Source: Arthrobacter sp. RIT-PI-e
GTDB taxonomy: Bacteria > Actinomycetota > Actinomycetes > Actinomycetales > Micrococcaceae
DNA length: 64,000 nt
NCBI RefSeq assembly: GCF_001187915.1
Contig: NZ_LGIU01000042.1
Coordinates: 1 to 64,000, forward strand
Direction of reading: 5' to 3'
In this document: positions 44,719 through 55,480 of the stretch, piece after piece
Numbering within the stretch: the first letter of the stretch is position 1
Layout of the letters: each line of letters begins with the position of its first letter
Made by a program: the position numbers and the translations under genes
The notes under the pieces: generated by a model
Told to the model about the DNA's origin: nothing
Database searches by the model: none
Seen by the model: the letters and a program-made list of their open reading frames with translations, nothing else

Positions 44719-45156
44719 CGGCTGCCCTTATGAGAATGAACACGACGACACGGAATCCGATCCGGCATTTCCCTCGCATGACAAACGGGTACCCATTGCG
44801 GGCCATACGCATCATTGCGGCGAAACCGATCGTTGTCCGGCAGCGCTCGAAACCTGACAAAGGGAGACGGAGAAAGTATCTGGGCGAGTGCAGCACCCTG
44901 ATCTTGACGTATTCCTGGTGAAGATGCAACGAGAAACTTGGGGATTTCCCGTATTGGCCGACTGTCTATTGTGGTGGCCGATCGGACGAGAAACTCTAGC
45001 GTATCGGCCATAGCGCTCCACGCAGTCGATGGTGTGACATGAGTCCCAGGACGTGGTCTCAGGAAATTCCCAGGTCTCACAGTGGTTTTCCGCAGCTCGG
45101 AAGAGCCCTTCCGGCGCGCTCCGCTGACAAAGTACTTTCAAAGGGGAAAAATCGTC
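44719..45156. promoter_or_regulatory. Divergent region between GAF gene and coiled-coil surface protein gene
   Basis: These 438 relatively AT-rich bases must hold promoters for both directions. Several GGCC(A/G)AT-type words recur (for example around 44800, 44957, 44978 and 45005), but no clear operator or riboswitch could be assigned. AAAGGGG about ten bases before ATG 45157 is the ribosome site of the surface protein. Confidence 0.4.
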
Positions 45157-47766
45157 ATGGCTCAATCCACACGGCTCGTTGCCGCTGGTTCAACCGCTGC
45201 CCTCGTCGCCGGCGGTCTTCTGTTCACTGCCGCGCCGGCTTCGGCCGCTCCCAACTCCGCCGACTGCCTGGCCGCCCAGAGCCTGTTCCGGGCGGCGCTC
45301 GATACTGCTGCAGCGGACGAGAGTCTCTCGGCCGAGCTGGGCGAGGCCCTCGAGGCCGTTCTCGTGGCCCTCGCCGAGCGCGACGCCCTCGTGGCCGCCG
45401 TCCCGGCGGACACCGCCGCTGCGCAGGAGGTCCTGGACGCCGCCCTCATCGTCCTCGCCGACGCTCAGGCTGACGTCGATGCCGCACAGGCGGCCCTCGA
45501 CGCCGCAGAGTTGATCCAGGCTCCCCTGGATCAGGCGGTCGTCGACGCTCAGGCGGACCTCGACGCCGCGCTGCAGGCCCTCGCCGACGCGCAGGCCGCA
45601 GTCGATGCCGCGGAGCAGGACCTGGCCGACGCCGAGGCGCTGCTGGCCCAGCTCCAGGAGGACGTCGACGCCGCACAGGACGCCGTGGACACCGCGATCG
45701 ACGTGCTCGCCGGCCTGAACGACGACGTCCTCGAGGCGGAGGGCCTGCTCGACGACGCCGAAGGAGCGCAGGAGGGCCTAGATGCCGCCGTGGACGCCGC
45801 CCAGGAGGACGTCGACGAGGCGGAAGAGGCGCAGGAGGCCCTCGACGGGGCTGCCGCAGATGCAGCAGCGAACCTCGCCGACGCCGTCGAAGTGCAGGCC
45901 GGGCTCGAGGCCGATCTGGCAATTGCTCAGAGAAACCTCGCCGGCGCGGTCGAGGTCCGGGGCGGGCTCGTGGCCGCCGTCGAGGCCGCACAGACGGCCC
46001 TCGATGACGCGGTGGCTGCCGGACCTGGGCTGGCCGCCGCCGTCGTCGACGCACAGGCGAACCTGGACGCCGCTGTCGGCGCCGAGGCCGGCCTCATCGC
46101 CGCCGTCGACGCTGCCCAGGCGGAGGTCGATGCCATCGAGGCTGCACTGCCCGGGCTGGCGGACGAAGCCGCCGACCTTGCTGTCGATCTCGATCTGGCC
46201 CTGGCTGATGTGGCGGCCCTGGAAATCGCCGCGAACGCGGCACTCGGAGCGTTCAACGAGGGCAGCGGCATTCTGGCCGGCCTTCAAACCACCCTTGACA
46301 CCGCAACAGCTGCTCTCGTCACCGCCGTCGCCTCTGGCGACCTCACGGCGATCCTCAACGCACAGGCAGCTGTTACTTCGGCTACCGATGCTCTGCTCGC
46401 AGCCCAGGCGACCATCAACCTCGGTCAGCTGCAGATCAACCTGAACCTGGCTGTTGCGAACCTTGACAGCGCAGAAGCGGACGCAGAACTCCTCAGGGTC
46501 GCCCTGGGTGTGGCGGTCGGCAACGTCCAGGAGGCGCAGGAAGGCCTTGGAGCGGCACAGATCGCGCTGGCGGAGGCACAGGCCGCGCTGAGTGCCAATG
46601 CGCAGGCCCAGATCGATCTGGCCATCCTCGTCACCGTGGCCGAGGCCGCGGTGACCGCCAACGCCGATGCCATCCCCGGCCTCGAGGACATCCGGGACGA
46701 AGCCGTGGGCGCCGCGGCAGACAACGCTGCAGCCATCGTCGAGCTCGAGGGCCTCCTGGAAGTGGCCGAGGATGACCGGGATGCCGGTCTGGCGATCGTC
46801 GCCGGGCTGCAGGCCACCTTCGACGCCGCCGCAGCCGACGCCGCCGAGGGCCAGGAAACCCTCGACGGTCTGCGGATCGTCCTCGCCGAGGCCACGGCAG
46901 ATGCTGCCGCCAACGCCGCGCTGATCGTCAGCCTCGGTGAAGCACTCGAGGAGATCACCGAGCTTCGTGACGCGGCCGCCGATGCGCTCGAGGCCCTGGA
47001 GATCGAGCTCGACGACGCCGAGCGCCTTCAGGCCGAGGCCGTGGCCGCGATCGACCTGGTCGCACTCCAGGATGCGATCGACGACGCCCTGGAGGCGCAG
47101 GCGGAGGTCGTGGCCGAGATCGACCTGGACGCCCTCGAGGCAGCTCTCGAGGCCGCCGTCGCGGTGGCAGCAGAGGGCCAGATCGAGGTCGACGCCGCGC
47201 AGGCGGATCTCGATGCCGCACTGGTGCTGCTGGCCGACGCCGAGGACGGCGTCGCCGAGGCTCGGGCGGGAGTGATCGCGGCTGCGAACCTCGAAGCCAT
47301 CATCGCCGCGAACGTCCGCCTCGAACTGGCCGTGGCCGCCGCGAACGAGCTCCGTGTGGACGCGGACGCGTTCACCGTGGACTACGCGGCGATCGAGGAC
47401 CTCTTCGACGCCGCGATCGTGGCCTGCTCCGGCGGGCCGACCATCGACATCGACTTCGACATCGATGGTGACGGGAATGTCGGCATCATCGTCGGCGGGA
47501 CCGGCACGGGCGGCGGCACGGGCGGCGGCACCGGCGGCGGCGTCGTCGTTCCCGGCGCCATCCCGGGCGTCGGCGGCACCGGCACCGGCACCGGGAAGGG
47601 CTCCGTACCCGCCGGTAGCAACCGCGGGATGAACGTCCAGACCGGTACCGGCGCGGAGGGCGCCTCGGAGAGCAGCCTGCCCCTGGGCGGCATGCTCGTG
47701 GCCGGGTTCGGTCTGCTCGCAGCAGCCGGCCTCTGGGCTCGACGCTCGCTGAAGATCGAGGACTGA
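45157..47766 (+). CDS. Large Ala-rich coiled-coil secreted protein with C-terminal membrane anchor
   Basis: ATG 45157 begins a signal peptide (cleavage near ASAAP, residue 30). About 750 residues of Ala/Asp/Glu/Leu-rich predicted coiled coil follow, including six tandem 21-residue repeats (residues 204-329, DNA 45766-46143). Then come an acidic DIDFDIDGDGNVG segment, a Gly/Thr linker, RGMNVQTG, SLPLGG, one hydrophobic helix and a short basic end. No canonical LPxTG/LAxTG is present; NVQTG is the only candidate sorting motif. The next gene is a sortase, so it is a likely substrate. It probably forms a rod-like surface stalk. Confidence 0.8.
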   Translation: MAQSTRLVAAGSTAALVAGGLLFTAAPASAAPNSADCLAAQSLFRAALDTAAADESLSAELGEALEAVLVALAERDALVAAVPADTAAAQEVLDAALIVLADAQADVDAAQAALDAAELIQAPLDQAVVDAQADLDAALQALADAQAAVDAAEQDLADAEALLAQLQEDVDAAQDAVDTAIDVLAGLNDDVLEAEGLLDDAEGAQEGLDAAVDAAQEDVDEAEEAQEALDGAAADAAANLADAVEVQAGLEADLAIAQRNLAGAVEVRGGLVAAVEAAQTALDDAVAAGPGLAAAVVDAQANLDAAVGAEAGLIAAVDAAQAEVDAIEAALPGLADEAADLAVDLDLALADVAALEIAANAALGAFNEGSGILAGLQTTLDTATAALVTAVASGDLTAILNAQAAVTSATDALLAAQATINLGQLQINLNLAVANLDSAEADAELLRVALGVAVGNVQEAQEGLGAAQIALAEAQAALSANAQAQIDLAILVTVAEAAVTANADAIPGLEDIRDEAVGAAADNAAAIVELEGLLEVAEDDRDAGLAIVAGLQATFDAAAADAAEGQETLDGLRIVLAEATADAAANAALIVSLGEALEEITELRDAAADALEALEIELDDAERLQAEAVAAIDLVALQDAIDDALEAQAEVVAEIDLDALEAALEAAVAVAAEGQIEVDAAQADLDAALVLLADAEDGVAEARAGVIAAANLEAIIAANVRLELAVAAANELRVDADAFTVDYAAIEDLFDAAIVACSGGPTIDIDFDIDGDGNVGIIVGGTGTGGGTGGGTGGGVVVPGAIPGVGGTGTGTGKGSVPAGSNRGMNVQTGTGAEGASESSLPLGGMLVAGFGLLAAAGLWARRSLKIED
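45766..46143 (+). repeat. Six 63-base in-frame repeats coding 21-residue coiled-coil units
   Basis: The translated units begin AQEGLDAAV, AQEALDGAA, VQAGLEADL, VRGGLVAAV, AGPGLAAAV and AEAGLIAAV, each exactly 21 residues (three heptads). The DNA copies have diverged at third positions, so the array is not recent. Confidence 0.8.
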
Positions 47767-47891: not shown

Positions 47892-48737
47892 ATGAACGAG
47901 CGATCCCAGCCCGAGAACACACCACGATCCGCTGACCCGGTGCCTGCGCCGGCGTCGCACCGGATGACCCGCCGATCGCGGTGGCGGACCCTGCCCCTTG
48001 GCGCAGCGGCAGGACTCACCGTGACCCTCACGCTCGCCCTGCCGGGCCCGCCCACCCCGTCACCGGCCGTCGGCGGTGCTGCGCCGGCGGTCAGCGAGGC
48101 GCCGGCCGTATCAGCCCCGCCGAGCTCGCCGCCCACCGCCGACGCCCGACCACCCATCGCCGTCGACACCCAACCGCCCGCCGCTGCCGCCACCGTGCCT
48201 GCGCCGTCGTCCTCGCCCACGCCCACATCCCCACCGACCCTGGATCCGGCACCTCCCGCCGTCGCTCCGGAGACTGCGGACGAGGCACCGGCCTCACAAC
48301 CGGTGGGGATCGAGTTCCCCGCCGCCGCCATCGACATGGCCGTACTACCCCTGACACCGAGCGACGCCGATCTAGCGTCCCAGCAGCTGGTGCCCCCGCT
48401 GACCCTCGAGGCCTACTGGCTCTCCCCCTACGGGGCGCCGGGAGCGGGGTCGGCGAACACCACCTACATCGTGGGCCACAGCTGGGAGGGCCAGGACGCC
48501 CCGTTCAACCGGCTGAGCGACGAGACCCTCGTGGACGAGGAGTTCACGATCACCACGCACACCGGAGAGGTGACCTACTTGGTCGATTCGGTGACCACCC
48601 ACGACAAGGACACGCTCAAGGACAGTGACGTGTGGAGCATCGTCCCGAACCGGGTGGTGCTCATCAGCTGCTACACGGAGAACCCGTGGGGGAAGAACGT
48701 CGTGGTCACGGCGACACCCGCTCCGCAGCAGCCGTGA
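47892..48737 (+). CDS. Sortase (class E/F-like) with Lys at the usual catalytic Arg position
   Basis: The 281-residue protein has a short N-terminus, one membrane helix (about 33-51), a long Pro/Ala/Ser linker (50-135) and a compact sortase domain. His196 (TYIVGHSWEG) and Cys260 (VVLISCYTENPWG) are in place. The residue expected to be Arg downstream of the Cys is Lys268 (WGKNVVVTA), and no other Arg follows. It lies directly downstream of the coiled-coil protein. Its 3' end overlaps the convergent LADTG protein gene by 32 bases. Confidence 0.8.
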   Translation: MNERSQPENTPRSADPVPAPASHRMTRRSRWRTLPLGAAAGLTVTLTLALPGPPTPSPAVGGAAPAVSEAPAVSAPPSSPPTADARPPIAVDTQPPAAAATVPAPSSSPTPTSPPTLDPAPPAVAPETADEAPASQPVGIEFPAAAIDMAVLPLTPSDADLASQQLVPPLTLEAYWLSPYGAPGAGSANTTYIVGHSWEGQDAPFNRLSDETLVDEEFTITTHTGEVTYLVDSVTTHDKDTLKDSDVWSIVPNRVVLISCYTENPWGKNVVVTATPAPQQP

Positions 48738-49422
48738 CCGCGGACTCCTTCCTCCGCCGGGCGGCCGCCGAGACCCCCAACCCGACGACGACGGCGCCCA
48801 GGGCGAGGAGCACCTGCATCAGCAGGGCGGCACCCGTGTCCGCGAGTGAACCCGGGCCCTGCCGGAACGGCCGGCTCCCGCCCGGTCCGGCGGCTTCGTC
48901 CGTCGTGCCCGTCGCGGCCGCCGTGACCACGATGTGCGCGCGTTCCGAAGGCGGACCGAGGCGGGCCCCGGCAGCGAGGGTCACGTCGACGCGGACATAG
49001 ACGGCTCCGCCCACGTGCAGGGTGGGGTGGAGGACGGTGGTGGAGGTGCCGCTCACCGAGCTCAGGGGGACCGCGGGGACCACCGGTGTGCTGCTTCCGG
49101 TGCAGCCGGCGTCCTCGAAGGGTACGGAGCAGGCGGTGGCCGACACGTCGAGGTGCTGCTCGAGGCCCCTGTCGCTCAGTGCGTGGCCGTCGAGTCTCAC
49201 GGTGAGGGTGTCGAGGTGGTCCTGGTCGACGTCAATCCGGAGGTCCCAGGAGGAGACCTTCCCGGGTACCAGGAACACCACGTCCTCGCTGTGGTCGAGT
49301 TGCAGCAACCTGGGGGCGCTCGGCATCGCCTGCTCTCCCTCGAGCGCGGCGACACCCAGCGGTGAGCAGAGCAGCACCGCCAGGGCCGCGCCGGCGCCGT
49401 AGCGGACCCTACGGGTGCTCAT
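48706..49422 (-). CDS. Secreted LADTG-anchored protein of the SipW operon
   Basis: The 238-residue protein has a signal peptide (to about residue 26), a beta-rich extracellular region with two Cys (TACSVPFEDAGC) and a C-terminal SLADTG, hydrophobic helix and RRRK tail, the LAxTG class E sorting signal. It overlaps the SipW peptidase gene by ATGA, so it is made together with the SipW substrates. It may anchor or cap the exported fibre subunits on the wall (inference). No known domain was recognised in the body. Confidence 0.78.
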   Translation of the reverse strand: MSTRRVRYGAGAALAVLLCSPLGVAALEGEQAMPSAPRLLQLDHSEDVVFLVPGKVSSWDLRIDVDQDHLDTLTVRLDGHALSDRGLEQHLDVSATACSVPFEDAGCTGSSTPVVPAVPLSSVSGTSTTVLHPTLHVGGAVYVRVDVTLAAGARLGPPSERAHIVVTAAATGTTDEAAGPGGSRPFRQGPGSLADTGAALLMQVLLALGAVVVGLGVSAAARRRKESAVTAAAERVSP

Positions 49423-50033
49423 GCATCAGCTCGGGCACCATGAGGGCTGTCCTCGGAGGGCGCATTCTCCTCCCGGCGGCGTCCGCGGCGCGAGGTGTGC
49501 CGTGAGGGATTGCGCCGCTGCGCCGTGGGCCAGCTGCTCCAGGTGACCAGGCCGGCCACCAGCACGGTGATGGCGGCCATGACCGGTGGATCGGAGATCC
49601 GGACGATCACGTGGGCGAGGTCCGGCACGGACCCGAGGACCCGCCGCACGGTGTCCACCGTGTACGGAGCGGGATCCTCCTGGAGGTTGGCGTCACCCTT
49701 CATGGTGATGATCCGGGTGGCACCACCGGCGTCCGTCACATCGGTGACGCGGTGCGTCACGGGAAGAGCGTCGGGGCGGTCGACGGTGATGACGTCCCCG
49801 GGAACGATGTCCGCTGCAGGGATCTGCTGGACCAGGGCCACCGAACCCGCGGGGATGGTGGGCGACATGGACCCGGTCTTGAACATGATGAGCGTGATGT
49901 CGAAGACCAGGGCGAGGACCACGAGCACGATGCACAGGCCACCGCCCACGGCAGCCAGGTCGAGCAGTGCGTCCCCCACCAGCCGCACGGGCCCCCGCTC
50001 GCCGCGCCGGGTACGGCTCGCGGCCGGTGTCAT
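49419..50033 (-). CDS. sipW: SipW-type signal peptidase I
   Basis: The 204-residue membrane protein has two helices and the S26 motif FKTGSMSPTIPAGS (Ser55). The second catalytic position is His94 (PVTHRV) instead of Lys, the mark of SipW/ER-type peptidases. The start ATG 50033 overlaps the stop of the upstream substrate gene (ATGA). Such enzymes process TasA/CalY-type proteins with the special SipW signal, and two such genes lie immediately upstream. The symbol is by similarity to Bacillus. Confidence 0.88.
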   Translation of the reverse strand: MTPAASRTRRGERGPVRLVGDALLDLAAVGGGLCIVLVVLALVFDITLIMFKTGSMSPTIPAGSVALVQQIPAADIVPGDVITVDRPDALPVTHRVTDVTDAGGATRIITMKGDANLQEDPAPYTVDTVRRVLGSVPDLAHVIVRISDPPVMAAITVLVAGLVTWSSWPTAQRRNPSRHTSRRGRRREENAPSEDSPHGARADA

Positions 50034-50695
50034 GGGGTGGACACCGCGGAGAAGAGCCACACCGCGGTGGCCGACCTACCCTGCAACCCGTTGTTCGCCC
50101 TCGCGCTCTCGGGCAGGGTCACCTCGAAGCAGAACCGCACACCGGCACCCGGTGCCGTGGGGGTCGCCGCCGGCAGGACGGTGCTCCCTCCAGCCGCCTG
50201 ACCAGTGGTCAGGGGCTGGGACGCGCTCGCGGACCCCACTACGAAGGCTGCCCCCGGAGCGAACGCAGTCGCGTTGCACACGTCCGAACGCACCACCCGG
50301 TACACCAGCGCCGCACTCAGCAGCGGCGCCGTCGTCGTCGAATCGGTGACGGCAGCCCCACCGAGTGTCACCGCGCCGGCCATCGATGTTGCGCGGGTAC
50401 GCAGCGCGATCGGTGCGTACACCGTTCTCCCCGGGTACATGCCCCCGGCGTCGAAGGCCAGGGTGGCACCCGGTGCGGTCTCGTTGACCGTCCAGGCACC
50501 GGTGGCCGAGAAAGGGTTCGAGACGTTGGACTCGATGGTGAAGGTACTGGCGCTGAAGGAGCCGCTGGCGTACTCCGTGTCCGTCCACGAGGCCAGGGTG
50601 AGCGACCCGCCGATGCCGAGCACCAGGGCACCGGCGAGAACTGCCCGCACACGGGAGAATCGTCTTCCCGGGGAGCGGGACCTGCGAGCGCCCAC
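50030..50695 (-). CDS. SipW-dependent (alternate signal peptide) secreted protein
   Basis: The N-terminus has RAVLAGALVLGIGGSLTLASW followed by TDTEYASGSF, the SipW-type signal with the W-x-D-x-E mark. The mature part is a beta-rich domain with a Cys pair. GTG 50695 starts just after the upstream gene's stop; a GTG at 50728 would overlap it by 31 bases, and neither has a clear ribosome site. It is a paralogue of the upstream gene and resembles TasA/CalY-class fibre proteins in its signal only; fibre formation is inference. Confidence 0.82.
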   Translation of the reverse strand: MGARRSRSPGRRFSRVRAVLAGALVLGIGGSLTLASWTDTEYASGSFSASTFTIESNVSNPFSATGAWTVNETAPGATLAFDAGGMYPGRTVYAPIALRTRATSMAGAVTLGGAAVTDSTTTAPLLSAALVYRVVRSDVCNATAFAPGAAFVVGSASASQPLTTGQAAGGSTVLPAATPTAPGAGVRFCFEVTLPESARANNGLQGRSATAVWLFSAVSTP

Positions 50696-50697
50696 GG

Positions 50698-51333
50698 TCA
50701 GGACAGCGACTCGGCTGCGAACTCCCACGTAGCGGTACCGGCTGCGCCCTGGGTGATGTCACCGGCTGTGACCACGAAGCACAGGTACACCGGCGCGAAG
50801 GTGGTGACGGCGTTGGGCCCGGTTCCCGTGGTGGTGGGCTGAGCCAGGTTGAACGATACTTCGCCGAGCTCGGCGCCGAGTGATGTGCCTGCCGCCACGA
50901 GGGCCAGGCCCGTACCCGTGGTCGTGTCGTCACACCCGAAGGTCGTGGTCTGCAGCAGCTCGTAGGTGACGTCCGTCAGATCGCCGTCAACCTCTGTGGC
51001 CGAGACGACGACGTTCGCCCCGTACGTCGTGTCCTCGTCGAGCCTCACGGCGAAGGGGGCGTAGACGACGTCCTCCGGGGCCAGGTTGTCCGGATTGACC
51101 TCGAACCCCAGGGTTGCAGCACCGTCAGGGGTCTCGTGCTCGCTGAAGACGGTTCCGTCGGCACTTCCCTCGAGGTTGAACTGGCCGGCAGCGAAGTTGC
51201 CGATGGCGAACTCGGAATCGTTCCAGGCGGCGAGGGTGACGGCCGCACCCACTCCGAGGACCAGTCCTCCCGCGAGAACCGCCCGGACTCGGCGCCGCTT
51301 CAACTGGACGTTCTCGGGCATGGTCTGGGGCAT
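50698..51333 (-). CDS. SipW-dependent (alternate signal peptide) secreted protein
   Basis: The 211-residue product begins with a basic segment and AVLAGGLVLGVGAAVTLAAW, NDSEFAIGNF, an ideal SipW-type signal. The mature domain (about 165 residues, beta-rich, with FGCDD and YLCFVV cysteines) matches the layout of its downstream paralogue. It is the first gene of the operon: substrate, substrate, SipW, LADTG protein. It is probably the major subunit of a secreted surface polymer; there is no direct proof in the sequence. Confidence 0.85.
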   Translation of the reverse strand: MPQTMPENVQLKRRRVRAVLAGGLVLGVGAAVTLAAWNDSEFAIGNFAAGQFNLEGSADGTVFSEHETPDGAATLGFEVNPDNLAPEDVVYAPFAVRLDEDTTYGANVVVSATEVDGDLTDVTYELLQTTTFGCDDTTTGTGLALVAAGTSLGAELGEVSFNLAQPTTTGTGPNAVTTFAPVYLCFVVTAGDITQGAAGTATWEFAAESLS

Positions 51334-51565
51334 GGTGGTATTCCTTCGGCTCGAACATTTCCGGCTGAGACTGACCGGCGCGATGAATGTTATTCGAGCG
51401 ATCCGCTGAAGGCTCTGATCAATGGTCTAGATCTGGATACCCGATCGAACATACGTATTTACCCTGCGGGACAAACAATGGAATTCGCGAACTATTCTTC
51501 CTTGCCCGGGGGTGTCTCCTCCCGGAGGGACCGTACTATTCAAGGGCAAGCGATGGGAAAGGTTC

Positions 51566-52282
51566 ATGGTCACGTTCCGCGAAGCGCACCGGGAGGAAGC
51601 TGCCGCTGATGAGGTGTACGGCGACGATCTCGCTGAGCCCCGGAGGGGAGGAGGGCGATCGGTGCTGACCGCCCACGCCGACGCGATGTCCTCCGACCGG
51701 GAGGGCGGACGTGCCGCCGTCGGCTCCCTCGGGCGTCGCCGGGCGAAAGGCCTCCTGCTCCACAGCAGGGCCGGCCTGGCACTGCTCTTCGCCGTGTCGC
51801 TCCTGCTCCCCACCCAGAGCTCACCCGTGATCGGGTCCACGGAGGCGGCCTGGCAGCGGGATCACGTGAGTACGGGAGCGTTCGGTGCGGTGACGATCCC
51901 GGCTCCCCGGTTGACGGCCCCGTGCCGGTTCCTTCCCGGTGTCCTGACGGTCATCGGACCGCGCATCGAGATCTACTGGGCGCCTCCGCCCACCTACGGT
52001 GACGACAAGGCTCAGGTATGGGCCTCCACAGCGGGCCTGGGAACAGCACTTGCACCTCTGACAGGTTTCAACCTTCGCCAGAACACCGCGTTCGACGCCA
52101 GGGCCGGCCACTACGTCACGACCGTCCCGACGAATCTGCTGGGCGGGCTCCTCGGACTCGGGACCGAGATCGAGCTGTCCATCGTCATCGCCGAGCACGG
52201 CTGGACCTCCACTCCCGCCTCGACCGCCACCAACGCCGGCCTCGTTCTCGGACTGGGAGCCACCTGCCGCAATCTGAGTTGA
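51566..52282 (+). CDS. Secreted protein with SipW-like signal, divergent from the SipW operon
   Basis: The ATG at 51566 has GGGAAAGG upstream and gives 238 residues. A long charged N-terminus (about 55 residues) precedes a hydrophobic helix and STEAAWQRDHVSTGAF, which keeps the W-x-D...G-x-F pattern of SipW signals. The rest is a single beta-rich region ending GLGATCRNLS. The position beside the SipW operon suggests a third substrate or fibre-nucleating protein (inference). No known domain. Confidence 0.65.
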   Translation: MVTFREAHREEAAADEVYGDDLAEPRRGGGRSVLTAHADAMSSDREGGRAAVGSLGRRRAKGLLLHSRAGLALLFAVSLLLPTQSSPVIGSTEAAWQRDHVSTGAFGAVTIPAPRLTAPCRFLPGVLTVIGPRIEIYWAPPPTYGDDKAQVWASTAGLGTALAPLTGFNLRQNTAFDARAGHYVTTVPTNLLGGLLGLGTEIELSIVIAEHGWTSTPASTATNAGLVLGLGATCRNLS

Positions 52283-52378: not shown

Positions 52379-53221
52379 TCAGGTCAGGATCTCGAGCTGG
52401 ACGAGGGCAGCGAGCATCCTGAGCTTGTGCTCCTCGGCGTGTGACAGCGACCGCGGCCGGTCATCGACGATGCAGAGAGCACCGATGCGGGATCCGCCGG
52501 GGCCGAGGATCGGATGACCGGCGTAGAAACGGAAGTACGGAGGACCTACGACATGCGGTGAGTCCGAGAATCGCGGATCGCTCTGCGCGTCGGCGACGAT
52601 GAAGGTCCGGTTGTCCTGCACGGTTTCCTCGCAGAAGGACCCTCGCCGGGGACGATCGCGATTCGGCAGTCCGATGATCGATTTCGAGACGAGCACCTCC
52701 CGGTCCACGAGGGTGACCGCGGCTGCCATGGTTCCGAAGTGGTCACGCGCGATTCTGGGCAACCTGGCGATGCTCTCGGTGAGAGGTGCTTCGAGCAACC
52801 CGGAAGAACGAAGCGAGGAGAGCCGTTCCGATTCCTCGTGCCTCAGCATTGCGGCATGTGTGAGGGGATGGTCAGCCCTTCCCTGGATCACGACGCGATC
52901 CTCGTCAGCCCCTGGTCCATATCCGCAGGCGACGGACGGGTAGGACCCGCTGTAGGGGGCGCGAACCGCTCCTGCTATCAGCTGGGAAGCAGGTAGCAAC
53001 TGGTTCACGGCATAGGAGACGAGGTCTCGCTGCAACGGTGAGATCCTGGCGGCACCGTCCAGATAGGCCGAAACGGTTTCCCTGGTCTCCAGTCCGCCGG
53101 TCCCGGCATAGACACCGTGGATCTTCTCGGTGTTCAACCTGAAACGGCTCACGAGATGCCTCGTGACGCTCTGCTGCGCATCCTCGTAGGACACCCCCAC
53201 CACTCCCCGTCGCTCCCCCAT
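52379..53221 (-). CDS. GAF domain protein (paralogue of 43807-44718)
   Basis: The 280-residue protein has the same two-part layout as the gene at 43807: an N-terminal region with LDGAARISPLQRDLVSYAVNQLL, a linker, and a GAF domain (LSSLRSSGLLEAP, AAVTLVDREVLVSKS, GSFCEETVQDNRTFIVAD, FYAGHPILGPGGSRIGALCIVD). There is no output domain. An ANTAR protein and a response regulator are encoded just upstream on the same strand and could be partners (inference). Confidence 0.8.
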   Translation of the reverse strand: MGERRGVVGVSYEDAQQSVTRHLVSRFRLNTEKIHGVYAGTGGLETRETVSAYLDGAARISPLQRDLVSYAVNQLLPASQLIAGAVRAPYSGSYPSVACGYGPGADEDRVVIQGRADHPLTHAAMLRHEESERLSSLRSSGLLEAPLTESIARLPRIARDHFGTMAAAVTLVDREVLVSKSIIGLPNRDRPRRGSFCEETVQDNRTFIVADAQSDPRFSDSPHVVGPPYFRFYAGHPILGPGGSRIGALCIVDDRPRSLSHAEEHKLRMLAALVQLEILT

Positions 53222-53331
53222 CGATCATGGTCGGCTCAAAAATAATGGATGAGACGAGCGCTGTCCATCACATGATGCTTCCCCGCGTCCGCAGGCATGG
53301 ACCGGATCCCGATGTCACCGGTGAGCCTTGG

Positions 53332-53604
53332 TCACTTCTCGGTGTTCACTTCTCCGGAGGTGGACACCAACCCGCGCGCGAGTTCGAGAACGGTGACGTT
53401 GAACGTCTGGGCGGTGCGCTGCAGATTCGCCAATCCGCTCGCGCGGTCCAGATCGTGCTTGCCCATCACGATCCCGACGGCGGTATCCAGGAGGGAGCGA
53501 GCCTCGAGCGCCACGTCGAATGCCTTGTCGGACGCCGTGTGCCTGAAGTCGGATGCACCGACAAGATCGGTGTACGGAGAAAGAGCGGCGTGGGTGTGGG
53601 GCAT
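53332..53604 (-). CDS. Small ANTAR-type RNA-binding regulator
   Basis: The 90-residue protein's C-terminal 60 residues fit the ANTAR three-helix domain: LLDTAVGIVMGKHDLDRASGLANLQR, AQTFNVTVLELARGLV. ANTAR domains bind paired stem-loops in mRNA leaders and antiterminate. ATG 53604 is preferred for the GAGG upstream; a start at 53673 is possible. No sensor domain is fused, so one of the GAF proteins nearby could serve as sensor (inference). Confidence 0.7.
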   Translation of the reverse strand: MPHTHAALSPYTDLVGASDFRHTASDKAFDVALEARSLLDTAVGIVMGKHDLDRASGLANLQRTAQTFNVTVLELARGLVSTSGEVNTEK

Positions 53605-53796
53605 GGTGACCACCTCGTATCTCGTAGTGACGTCCGACGTGCGGCAGAGGGTGAACCGTAGCTGCTTCCACATCGATCCTTCGACTGCGTAACGCCTGCC
53701 GAAAGCTTAGGCGAACCGTGGACCGGGCACAAAGGGAGTTCGCTGAACCTCCGGCGAAAATTGATCGCTCGTACGTGCTGGTACGAATGTGGGGCT

Positions 53797-54453
53797 TCAG
53801 ATGGAGTGGAAACCTGCACGGACGGCGAACACCGCGAGCTCGACACGCCCGCCGACGTTGAGCTTCGCCATGATCTTCGTGATCTGGAGTTTCACCGTCG
53901 CCTCGCTGACGTGGAGGTCGAGAGCGATCTGGGCGTTCGTGCGGCCCGCCGTCAATCCGCTGAGGATGGAACGATCGCGCGCGGGCAAGCTGTTGATCAC
54001 CTGGTGATCGGACGCATCCTGCGTCATGACGGGTATCGGGAAACGCCCTACCTCGGGGGATGTGGAGAAGATGGTCTCCCCGTGGTGGATCATCCGGATC
54101 GCCGCACCCAGATCGGATGACACCGCGGACTTCGAGAGGTAACTGACTGCACCCGCCCGATACGCTTCGCGCATCACGTCGAAGGAGAGGTTCGAGGAGA
54201 GCATCGCCACCTTGACCTGGGGCGCCTGGTTCGTGATCTCCCGTACGGCACGGATGCCGTCGACATCCCGGATCATCGTCTCCATGAGCACCACGTCCGG
54301 ATTCAGCGACAGCGCTTCCTCGATCGCCGAGTTCCCCGTGGAACTGACCGATTCGACGTCGATCAATGGTGAACCCTCGAACAGCTTCTCGATACCCAGC
54401 CGCACGAGGTAGTCGTCATCGACGAGATGGACGCGGAGCTTCTGGTGCACCAC
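53797..54453 (-). CDS. NarL/FixJ-type response regulator with Glu in place of the phosphoacceptor Asp
   Basis: GTG 54453 is preferred because GGGGGAGG lies about eight bases upstream; ATG 54471 is the alternative. The receiver domain keeps the acidic pocket (HLVDDDYLV, residues 12-14) and the conserved Lys (YLSKSAV), but the phosphorylation loop reads VVLMETMIRDVDG, with Glu58 where Asp is expected. The C-terminal LuxR HTH is complete (SLPARDRSILSGLTAGRTNAQIA, VSEATVKLQITKIMAKL). No histidine kinase is adjacent. The Glu may mimic phosphorylation, making it constitutively active (inference). Confidence 0.88.
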   Translation of the reverse strand: MVHQKLRVHLVDDDYLVRLGIEKLFEGSPLIDVESVSSTGNSAIEEALSLNPDVVLMETMIRDVDGIRAVREITNQAPQVKVAMLSSNLSFDVMREAYRAGAVSYLSKSAVSSDLGAAIRMIHHGETIFSTSPEVGRFPIPVMTQDASDHQVINSLPARDRSILSGLTAGRTNAQIALDLHVSEATVKLQITKIMAKLNVGGRVELAVFAVRAGFHSI

Positions 54454-54726
54454 AGCTGAGACCTCCCCCATACGGTGAGCGGTCGCCCACCACGCTTCCT
54501 TGCGCTCGCCGCCCAACACGACGCGCGTCCTCACCAAGATTACCGAAGACGGGGACGTTGGCCAGGAGGAAGGTCGATTCCTGCCGATCGGGTGATGAGG
54601 GGTAGCCGACTGCACCGCCTGATGCACTAGCGACGCACGCCGTTCACTCCCATGCCTTCCGGGCGCACACCGCGTTTCGCCGTCGTCCTGATTGATGCAC
54701 CGCCGGGGCGCGACTAGATTCGCACC

Positions 54727-55263
54727 ATGCGCCCTCCCCGCCCCGAGATGTCGAACACCACTCCCCCACCGCTCAACGTGCCCCGGAAGCCGGCCGCCCC
54801 GGTGCGGGTCGCCGCGCGGCTCCTGGGTCTCGGAGCGGTGATCGGACTCGCATCCGTGGTGTTCCGGGTGCTGAACCAGGACACGCAGCTGACCTATCTG
54901 CGGCGCACCGCCGGCGGCGTGGAGAGCGGTGTCCCGCAGAGCGAGATCGAGCTGGTGGCGTTGGTGGCCTTCTGGGGCACGATCGGGCTGCTGGTGATCG
55001 TGTTCCTCATCCAGGCCATCCTGATCGGCCCGCTGCAGCGCGGGAAGGGCTGGGTGCGCTGGGTACTCCTCGGCCTCCTGGTGCCCAACCTGCTGGGCCT
55101 GCTGCTGGCCTCCGCCTTCCTGTCCGACGACACCCCCGGCCTGCAGCTCACACCCTTGCTGCTGATCGCCCAGGTGGTGCTGGCGGTGGTGGCCGTGCTG
55201 ACCATGCTGCTCCCGGCCGCGACGCGCTGGTTCCGGCAGATGCGGGCCGAGAGTCGGGGCTGA
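54727..55263 (+). CDS. Hypothetical four-helix membrane protein
   Basis: The 178 residues have hydrophobic segments at about 32-48, 76-98, 108-126 and 140-162 and a soluble loop (RRTAGGVESGVPQSEIE). No family was recognised. It is convergent with the next small membrane gene, four bases apart. Codon use is typical of the genome, so it is probably real. Confidence 0.65.
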   Translation: MRPPRPEMSNTTPPPLNVPRKPAAPVRVAARLLGLGAVIGLASVVFRVLNQDTQLTYLRRTAGGVESGVPQSEIELVALVAFWGTIGLLVIVFLIQAILIGPLQRGKGWVRWVLLGLLVPNLLGLLLASAFLSDDTPGLQLTPLLLIAQVVLAVVAVLTMLLPAATRWFRQMRAESRG

Positions 55264-55267
55264 AACC

Positions 55268-55480
55268 CTACCGACGGGCGCGGACGGCCATGATCGAGGC
55301 GGCCGTGTACACGAGGGCACTCACTACGAAGACGCCTGTCGCGACGAACATCAACGTGCTGCCCTGACTGTTGATGATGAGCATCAGAGCAGTACCGAGC
55401 ACCAAGCCGATGAGGCCCTTCCGCACTCCGCTGCGGGCTGCCTTCTGAACGCGTTCCCCCGGCGTCGTCAGGTGACCCAC
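55268..55480 (-). CDS. Small two-helix membrane protein
   Basis: The 70 residues have two membrane helices (KGLIGLVLGTALMLIIN and FVATGVFVVSALVYTAA) after a short basic amphipathic start. No domain was recognised. It is followed on the same strand by another small membrane gene upstream (55496), with which it may be transcribed. Confidence 0.55.
   Translation of the reverse strand: MGHLTTPGERVQKAARSGVRKGLIGLVLGTALMLIINSQGSTLMFVATGVFVVSALVYTAASIMAVRARR

Follow-up and report, generated by a model that had tools for sequence, protein, structure and literature searches.

The 64,000-nucleotide window of Arthrobacter sp. RIT-PI-e analysed here (contig NZ_LGIU01000042.1, positions 1 to 64,000) contains five adjacent genes encoding a SipW-type signal peptidase, three putative substrates of this enzyme and a predicted wall anchor protein (Table 1). 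Four of them are arranged on the minus strand in the order S1, S2, SipW and the gene of a protein with an LADTG motif (hereafter the anchor), and the fifth, S3, is divergent on the plus strand. The first-pass annotation of the window had described two SipW-signal proteins, a His-type SipW peptidase and an LADTG protein encoded in an overlapping row, with a third SipW-like secreted gene divergent from them; all of these genes are present, and the divergent one is confirmed as S3. The observations described below suggest, with a probability of about two in three, that the five genes make up a cassette which is complete in itself and encodes an extracellular fibre of the TasA type, attached to the cell wall.

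Table 1. Features of the putative fibre cassette and of the gene convergent with it
Feature	Position	Strand	Remarks
S1, putative TasA-type fibre subunit with SipW-type signal peptide	50698..51333	-	211 amino acids
S2, S1 paralogue, putative second fibre subunit	50030..50728	-	232 amino acids as listed
SipW, signal peptidase of the endoplasmic reticulum/archaeal type (Ser/His)	49419..50060	-	213 amino acids as listed
LADTG wall anchor protein (predicted)	48706..49422	-	238 amino acids; 4-nt overlap with SipW
S3, SipW-type-signal protein with different globular domain	51512..52282	+	divergent from S1
Divergent intergenic region, S1 to S3	51334..51511		178 bp, from coordinates
Sortase-like gene	47892..48737	+	convergent, 32-bp overlap with anchor gene; PF04203 36.1 bits

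The start sites of all cassette genes were judged from sequence alone. The true start of S2, a protein with 37% identity to S1, is perhaps the GTG at 50695 (giving 221 amino acids), that of SipW is probably the ATG at 50033 (204 amino acids and a 4-nt overlap with S2), and S3 probably starts further in, at 51566 or 51662. Consensus scans for promoters and terminators gave no matches at the cassette, and a sigma-70-type consensus was not found in the gap between S1 and S3.

The SipW protein passes the signal peptidase model TIGR02228 (64.9 bits, cut-off 51.85) and does not pass the Bacillus-specific model NF046067 (45.6 bits, cut-off 190). Of 82 SipW domains that were aligned, including that of the window, 81 have the catalytic Ser and all 82 have the His and the Asp of the GDA motif. 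Since SipW-type peptidases are frequent in the family, with 132 of 149 genomes having a match at E <= 1e-5 and 95 of them exceeding the cut-off, the presence of SipW alone is little informative. The S1 and S2 proteins match the NCBIfam model of the SipW-dependent-type signal peptide, TIGR04088 (27.0 and 25.1 bits, respectively; cut-off 19), which also finds matches in the Bacillus subtilis control genome, and mature S1 probably begins at residue 36 (AWNDSEF...). S3, a likely SipW substrate, has no match to TIGR04088 and no family match elsewhere in NCBIfam or Pfam; Pfam likewise returned nothing for S1 and S2 at E values up to 1. No enzyme family was found in NCBIfam or Pfam for S1, S2, S3 or the anchor, and neither S1 nor S2 has a sorting signal at its C-terminus.

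The distribution of the cassette was assessed in the loci of the best 80 of 264 S1 relatives retrieved by an S1 alignment search; these loci belong to Microbacteriaceae (32), Micrococcaceae (28), Brevibacteriaceae (13) and Dermabacteraceae (4), with three unplaced. Genes were counted by six-frame translation at cut-offs of 40 bits, or 60 for the anchor, with profiles (inclusion E 1e-6) that had been trained on the same loci together with a second locus set; some of the contigs are cut short. An early S3 profile drifted onto S1 and S2 via the common N-terminus (80.7 bits for S1), and therefore each frame was assigned to its best-scoring profile. SipW is encoded in all 80 loci. Two or more genes of the S1/S2 type occur in 75 of them, S3 in 76 and the anchor domain in 66, and 58 loci have all four kinds of gene. 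The soil strain Paenarthrobacter aurescens TC1 (L122) is one example with a full cassette. The order S-S-SipW-anchor-S3 is found in 53 loci and its anchor-less version in 14; the upstream, divergent position of S3 seen in the window is rarer, being shared by a single locus of the 80 (L109) and by L074 of the second set. The flanks vary, the most frequent additional family being present in 12 of the 81 neighbourhoods (the 80 loci and the window, with genes predicted by a simple gene caller). Among genomes of relatives, S1 matches were obtained in 34 of 196 (own included), representing 18 of 75 genera. In an even draw of the phylum they were found in 7 of 396 genomes, own included, a figure that may be too low, with eight candidates scored per genome; of the remaining six, three belong to the same order and one, which has paired S genes, to the same class, and two weak matches come from other parts of the phylum. 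A reduced S-SipW-anchor version is present in some more distant relatives (e.g. L093 and L095-L098). On the basis of these counts of co-occurrence, order and distribution, the five genes are a conserved cassette centred on one order, and the co-occurrence in other Actinobacteria that the first-pass annotation had proposed to look for is borne out in four families.

In 41 of the 80 loci, SipW and the anchor are encoded in one stop-free frame (42 proteins, one locus having two cassettes), as for example in Brevibacterium aurantiacum (L168). A simple hydropathy scan detected four hydrophobic segments in 39 of the 42 fused proteins, of which two accompany the peptidase, one precedes the TasA-like domain and one follows the sorting motif; the exceptions are L177 and L186, which are near a contig end and lack the last segment, and L164, which is just below the threshold. 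When mapped on the SipW tree, the fused label requires 6 changes, at least 4 of them forced by well-supported branches, compared to a mean of 27.7 for shuffled labels, none of 500 shuffles being as low as 6. Such repeated joining is good evidence that the two partners work together. Other arrangements were also encountered: a Glaciihabitans metagenome-assembled genome (L156:3847-9937) contains two complete cassettes in tandem, each with SipW and the anchor in one frame, and Arthrobacter sp. EpRS71 (L129:6154-7185) has SipW in one frame with S3, no anchor being recognised there.

The AlphaFold2 models of the mature part of S1 (76-row alignment) and of the anchor (66-row alignment) have a mean predicted local distance difference test score (pLDDT) of 87.8 and 81.9, respectively. 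For both models, the top match among solved structures in Foldseek is the TasA fibre 8aur_A (E 9.1e-5 and TM-score by query 0.54 for S1; E 1.7e-4 and 0.52 for the anchor), which is also the sole PDB match of either at E <= 0.001. Lower in both lists are Fim and Pap subunits of type 1 and P pili and archaeal cannulae, and the anchor list additionally includes Pyrobaculum bundling pili. In comparisons of profiles, that of S1/S2 aligns with the anchor profile across the globular domain (E 1.3e-5, probability 80%) and with the S3 profile only over the signal and the N-terminal strand (E 2.8e-8, 38 columns), and no match was obtained between the anchor and S3 profiles. The anchor has a TasA-like domain without the conserved N-terminal donor strand, while S3 has the signal and strand in common with S1 and S2, placed on an unrelated globular domain. 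A stricter check, with profiles built from the window and the 80-locus set only, involved T1, a TIGR04088-positive, TasA-like subunit encoded in a second SipW locus of the same genome. T1 is found by the strict anchor profile with 24.2 bits (E 1.6e-8 among 13 proteins) and by the strict S1/S2 profile with 15.6 bits; the 49.8 bits obtained earlier with the anchor profile were probably inflated, as its training set could hold T1. The anchor may descend from a T1-type subunit. The second SipW locus (G000:C32, L108:7694-10662) encodes TasA-like T1 and T2, another SipW and a secreted protein, T3, which is S3-like by eye only; no sorting motif was seen in that locus.

The excerpts of PMC9674648 describe how TasA polymerises, each subunit donating its N-terminal strand (residues 28-38) to the following one. 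In S1 and S2, conservation over 18 residues is highest at the start of the mature protein, where residues 1-18 rank first among 159 windows, with a relative entropy of 2.74 versus 1.76 for the rest; the next non-overlapping conserved window is C-terminal (2.52). Mature residues W2 and F17 do not vary, and D4, E6 and F12 hardly do. Despite this conservation, the first ten mature residues of the S1 model have a mean pLDDT of only 52, as expected for a strand that needs a partner. A donor-like motif is present in 65 of 76 S1/S2 proteins, 2 of 66 anchors and 17 of 43 S3 proteins, a distribution that suggests a role as donor only for S3, as donor and acceptor for S1 and S2, and as acceptor only for the anchor.

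By eye, the anchor has an ordinary-looking signal peptide, the LADTG motif, a hydrophobic stretch and a positively charged RRRK tail, as is characteristic of LPXTG-type wall proteins. Its score with the curated model TIGR01167 is 11.8 bits, below the cut-off of 15.9, and Pfam gives a sub-threshold match only (11.8 bits, cut-off 28.6). Nevertheless, a sorting motif of the type LAxTG (34) or LPxTG (25) is present in 59 of 68 anchor-family frames, that of the window included, with five altered motifs and four frames having none. A search of the same genome returned at least four sortases, including one of class E (234.8 bits, cut-off 160), one of class C, the pilus type, which is above its cut-off and on a different contig of the draft genome, and two class F-like enzymes just below theirs (164.2 and 165.6 of 166 bits); the sortase-like gene of the window, detected with Pfam, is absent from that list. 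Class E sortases favour LAxTG, and the anchor would probably be linked to peptidoglycan through the class E sortase of the genome.

The following course of assembly may be proposed for the cassette. S1 and S2 would be exported by Sec and their special signal peptides cut by SipW, freeing the conserved N-terminal segment (AWNDSEFAIGNFAAGQF in S1), which would be donated as a strand to the following subunit in the manner of TasA. S3, with its donor-type segment on an unrelated domain, could donate a strand and probably could not accept one, and would be the tip or initiator of the fibre. The anchor, which combines an acceptor domain and a sortase signal with the lack of a donor segment, would take the strand of the last subunit and tie the fibre to peptidoglycan, probably via the class E sortase. 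The overlap of the SipW and anchor genes, and their union in one polypeptide in approximately half of the 80 loci, would bring the release of subunits beside the wall-bound base. The full version of this scheme, in which a donor-only cap (S3), a donor-plus-acceptor shaft (S1 and S2) and an acceptor-only, wall-linked base are combined with a peptidase that doubles as an assembly platform, is put forward tentatively and has somewhat less than an even chance of being correct. If true, such a fibre would be a chaperone- and usher-free counterpart, on the Gram-positive wall, of the Gram-negative usher.

Several alternatives should be considered. The S proteins could form a TasA-like matrix fibre for which the anchor acts as a nucleator or chaperone, donating a strand or templating the subunits in the manner of TapA or CapP. 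Roles of this kind are given to the two Bacillus proteins in the excerpts of PMC10151520 and PMC13082335, the latter of which also places CapP at the cell wall, and fusion to SipW would put a helper of either kind at the exit site. However, the N-terminus of TapA is described as donor-like in the excerpts of PMC9674648, whereas a donor motif is almost absent from the anchors, which instead have a sortase motif, and it is S3 that carries the signal and strand region; such a function of the anchor is therefore considered unlikely. It is still less probable that S1, S2 and S3 are adhesins or enzymes that use SipW and are secreted or displayed on the wall as monomers. Although no fibre has been observed, which would suit monomers, enzyme-family matches are lacking, and both the highly conserved N-terminus modelled with low confidence and the fold match to the TasA fibre fit polymerising subunits better. 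Finally, the usual Gram-positive sortase-polymerised pili, with SipW being incidental, are very improbable in spite of the class C sortase of the genome and the LADTG motif of the anchor, as S1 and S2 lack sorting signals, the class C gene is on a different contig, and BLAST showed no conservation of sortase-like genes next to the cassette.

The reading of the cassette as encoding a wall-fixed TasA-type fibre has to accommodate a number of observations that weigh against it. When the profiles of S1/S2, the anchor and S3 were run against PDB sequences, the matches were at chance level only, TasA not being among them, and a comparison of folds was therefore needed. The resulting TM-scores to TasA are moderate, with a root mean square deviation of 6.9 Å for the anchor and 7.9 Å for S1, and both fold lists include unrelated beta-sandwich proteins (e.g. 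a birnavirus capsid protein for the anchor and a streptococcal adhesin for S1). The strict S1/S2 profile gives the anchor of the window only 6.1 bits, and neither S1 nor S2 is detected with the strict anchor profile; given these weak direct scores, the link between S1 and the anchor rests on the profile-profile comparison, the fold and the bridge provided by T1. The strict form of the donor motif is found in only 17 of the 43 S3 proteins. Moreover, the mature N-terminus may be conserved in part for its recognition by SipW, which would account for the first positions and less easily for F12 and F17. The loop between hydrophobic segments 2 and 3 is net positive in only 22 of the 42 fused proteins, so charge leaves the topology of the fused protein unsettled. 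No anchor is recognisable in 14 of the 80 cassettes, nor in L074 and L076, two loci of the window's own genus; in anchor-less cassettes, the fibre may be free or held otherwise. In addition, no bench study of any cassette member was found among the listed matches in the openly licensed literature.

The putative fibre can be compared with known systems. Pyrobaculum bundling pili are built of donor-strand subunits, as are type 1 and P pili, and pili of the chaperone-usher kind depend on a chaperone and an usher of their own. Both the bundling pili and the type 1 and P pili that appear in the fold lists differ from the present cassette in having no known sortase anchor. The tapA-sipW-tasA operon of B. 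subtilis resembles the cassette in that SipW is encoded with TasA-fold subunits, which have a conserved strand after the SipW cleavage site. However, the actinobacterial loci have two paralogous subunits, a TasA-like, sortase-type anchor that is often fused to SipW, and S3 where B. subtilis has TapA; two B. subtilis papers, PMC10151520 and PMC9674648, do not mention 'sortase' in their main text. In Bacillus cereus (sipW-tasA, capP and calY), two TasA-type subunits and an accessory secreted protein are similarly encoded near sipW, but the system is described as sortase-independent, with CapP being held at the wall by a disordered C-domain rather than by a sorting signal (excerpts of PMC13082335). 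The sipW-bsaABCRSD operon of Clostridium perfringens also combines SipW with several secreted proteins, and its pellicles need extracellular polymers; nevertheless, this system, too, is described as independent of sortase, as an LPXTG-like motif is lacking in BsaA, the sortase gene nearby was dispensable, and BsaA polymers are mainly extracellular (excerpts of PMC7395162). The same excerpts mention a two-component system encoded in that operon, which is not a conserved part of the present cassette. The main difference from the known SipW systems thus appears to be the sortase-type anchor, with the peptidase and the anchor often in one protein. Neither an actinobacterial system of this kind nor a SipW-anchor fusion was found among the titles and abstract openings of the openly licensed papers, among the matches listed.

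The first-pass annotation had proposed a distinct wall-linked fibre system, a reading that is supported in substance, with the existence of the fibre still being an inference. The lack of co-occurrence or the soluble enzymes that it had named as grounds for rejection were not encountered, as the cassette is conserved, its secreted products match no enzyme family in NCBIfam or Pfam, and the predicted folds of S1 and the LADTG protein are most similar to the TasA fibre. On the other hand, the suggestion that the LADTG protein replaces TapA-like anchoring is retained only in part: the protein is a predicted anchor of the sortase type, but not a simple stand-in for TapA, being TasA-like, devoid of the donor strand and often fused to SipW, and a function like that of TapA, as donor only, is more likely to fall to S3. 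Similarly, the analogy with TasA/TapA amyloid-like fibres agrees with the TasA likeness of the folds of S1 and the anchor, whereas the term 'amyloid-like' should yield to donor-strand assembly, as is described for TasA in the excerpts of PMC9674648.

On both sides of the cassette, further genes were considered. The convergent sortase-like gene was rejected as a member of the cassette, since BLAST placed a sortase-like gene near the cassette in only one other organism. In a BLAST survey with five query sortases, which could miss divergent sortases, the loci that matched were the window, that of A. castelli (seen twice, as L077 = L111) and L104, which is without a cassette. The protein encoded at 47892-48737 scores 27.8 bits against class F, far under the cut-off of 166, and by eye seems to have a Lys in what we take to be the place of the expected catalytic Arg (LISCYTENPWGKN). 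Adjoining this gene, positions 45082-47766 encode a very Ala/Asp-rich, coiled-coil-like protein of 894 amino acids with SMC-like profile matches, the C-terminus of which consists of SLPLGG and a hydrophobic segment; the product is probably secreted and is possibly a surface protein. Beyond S3, the region 52379-55320 contains a GAF-domain gene, a small open reading frame and what is by eye a LuxR-type response regulator gene. Genes related to that of the response regulator adjoin the cassette in L076 and L078; however, the GAF-domain and response-regulator genes were rejected as cassette regulators, as they are not among the families common to many loci.

TasA-type fibres have been studied in Bacillus, and the genes of the cassette suggest how such a fibre could be held to the cell. 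For a large group of actinobacteria, comprising Arthrobacter, Microbacterium, Brevibacterium, Leifsonia and their kin, the suggested answer is an end subunit that a sortase attaches to the wall and that is linked to the peptidase. The polarity, initiation and anchoring of the fibre thus become testable in cassettes of this kind.

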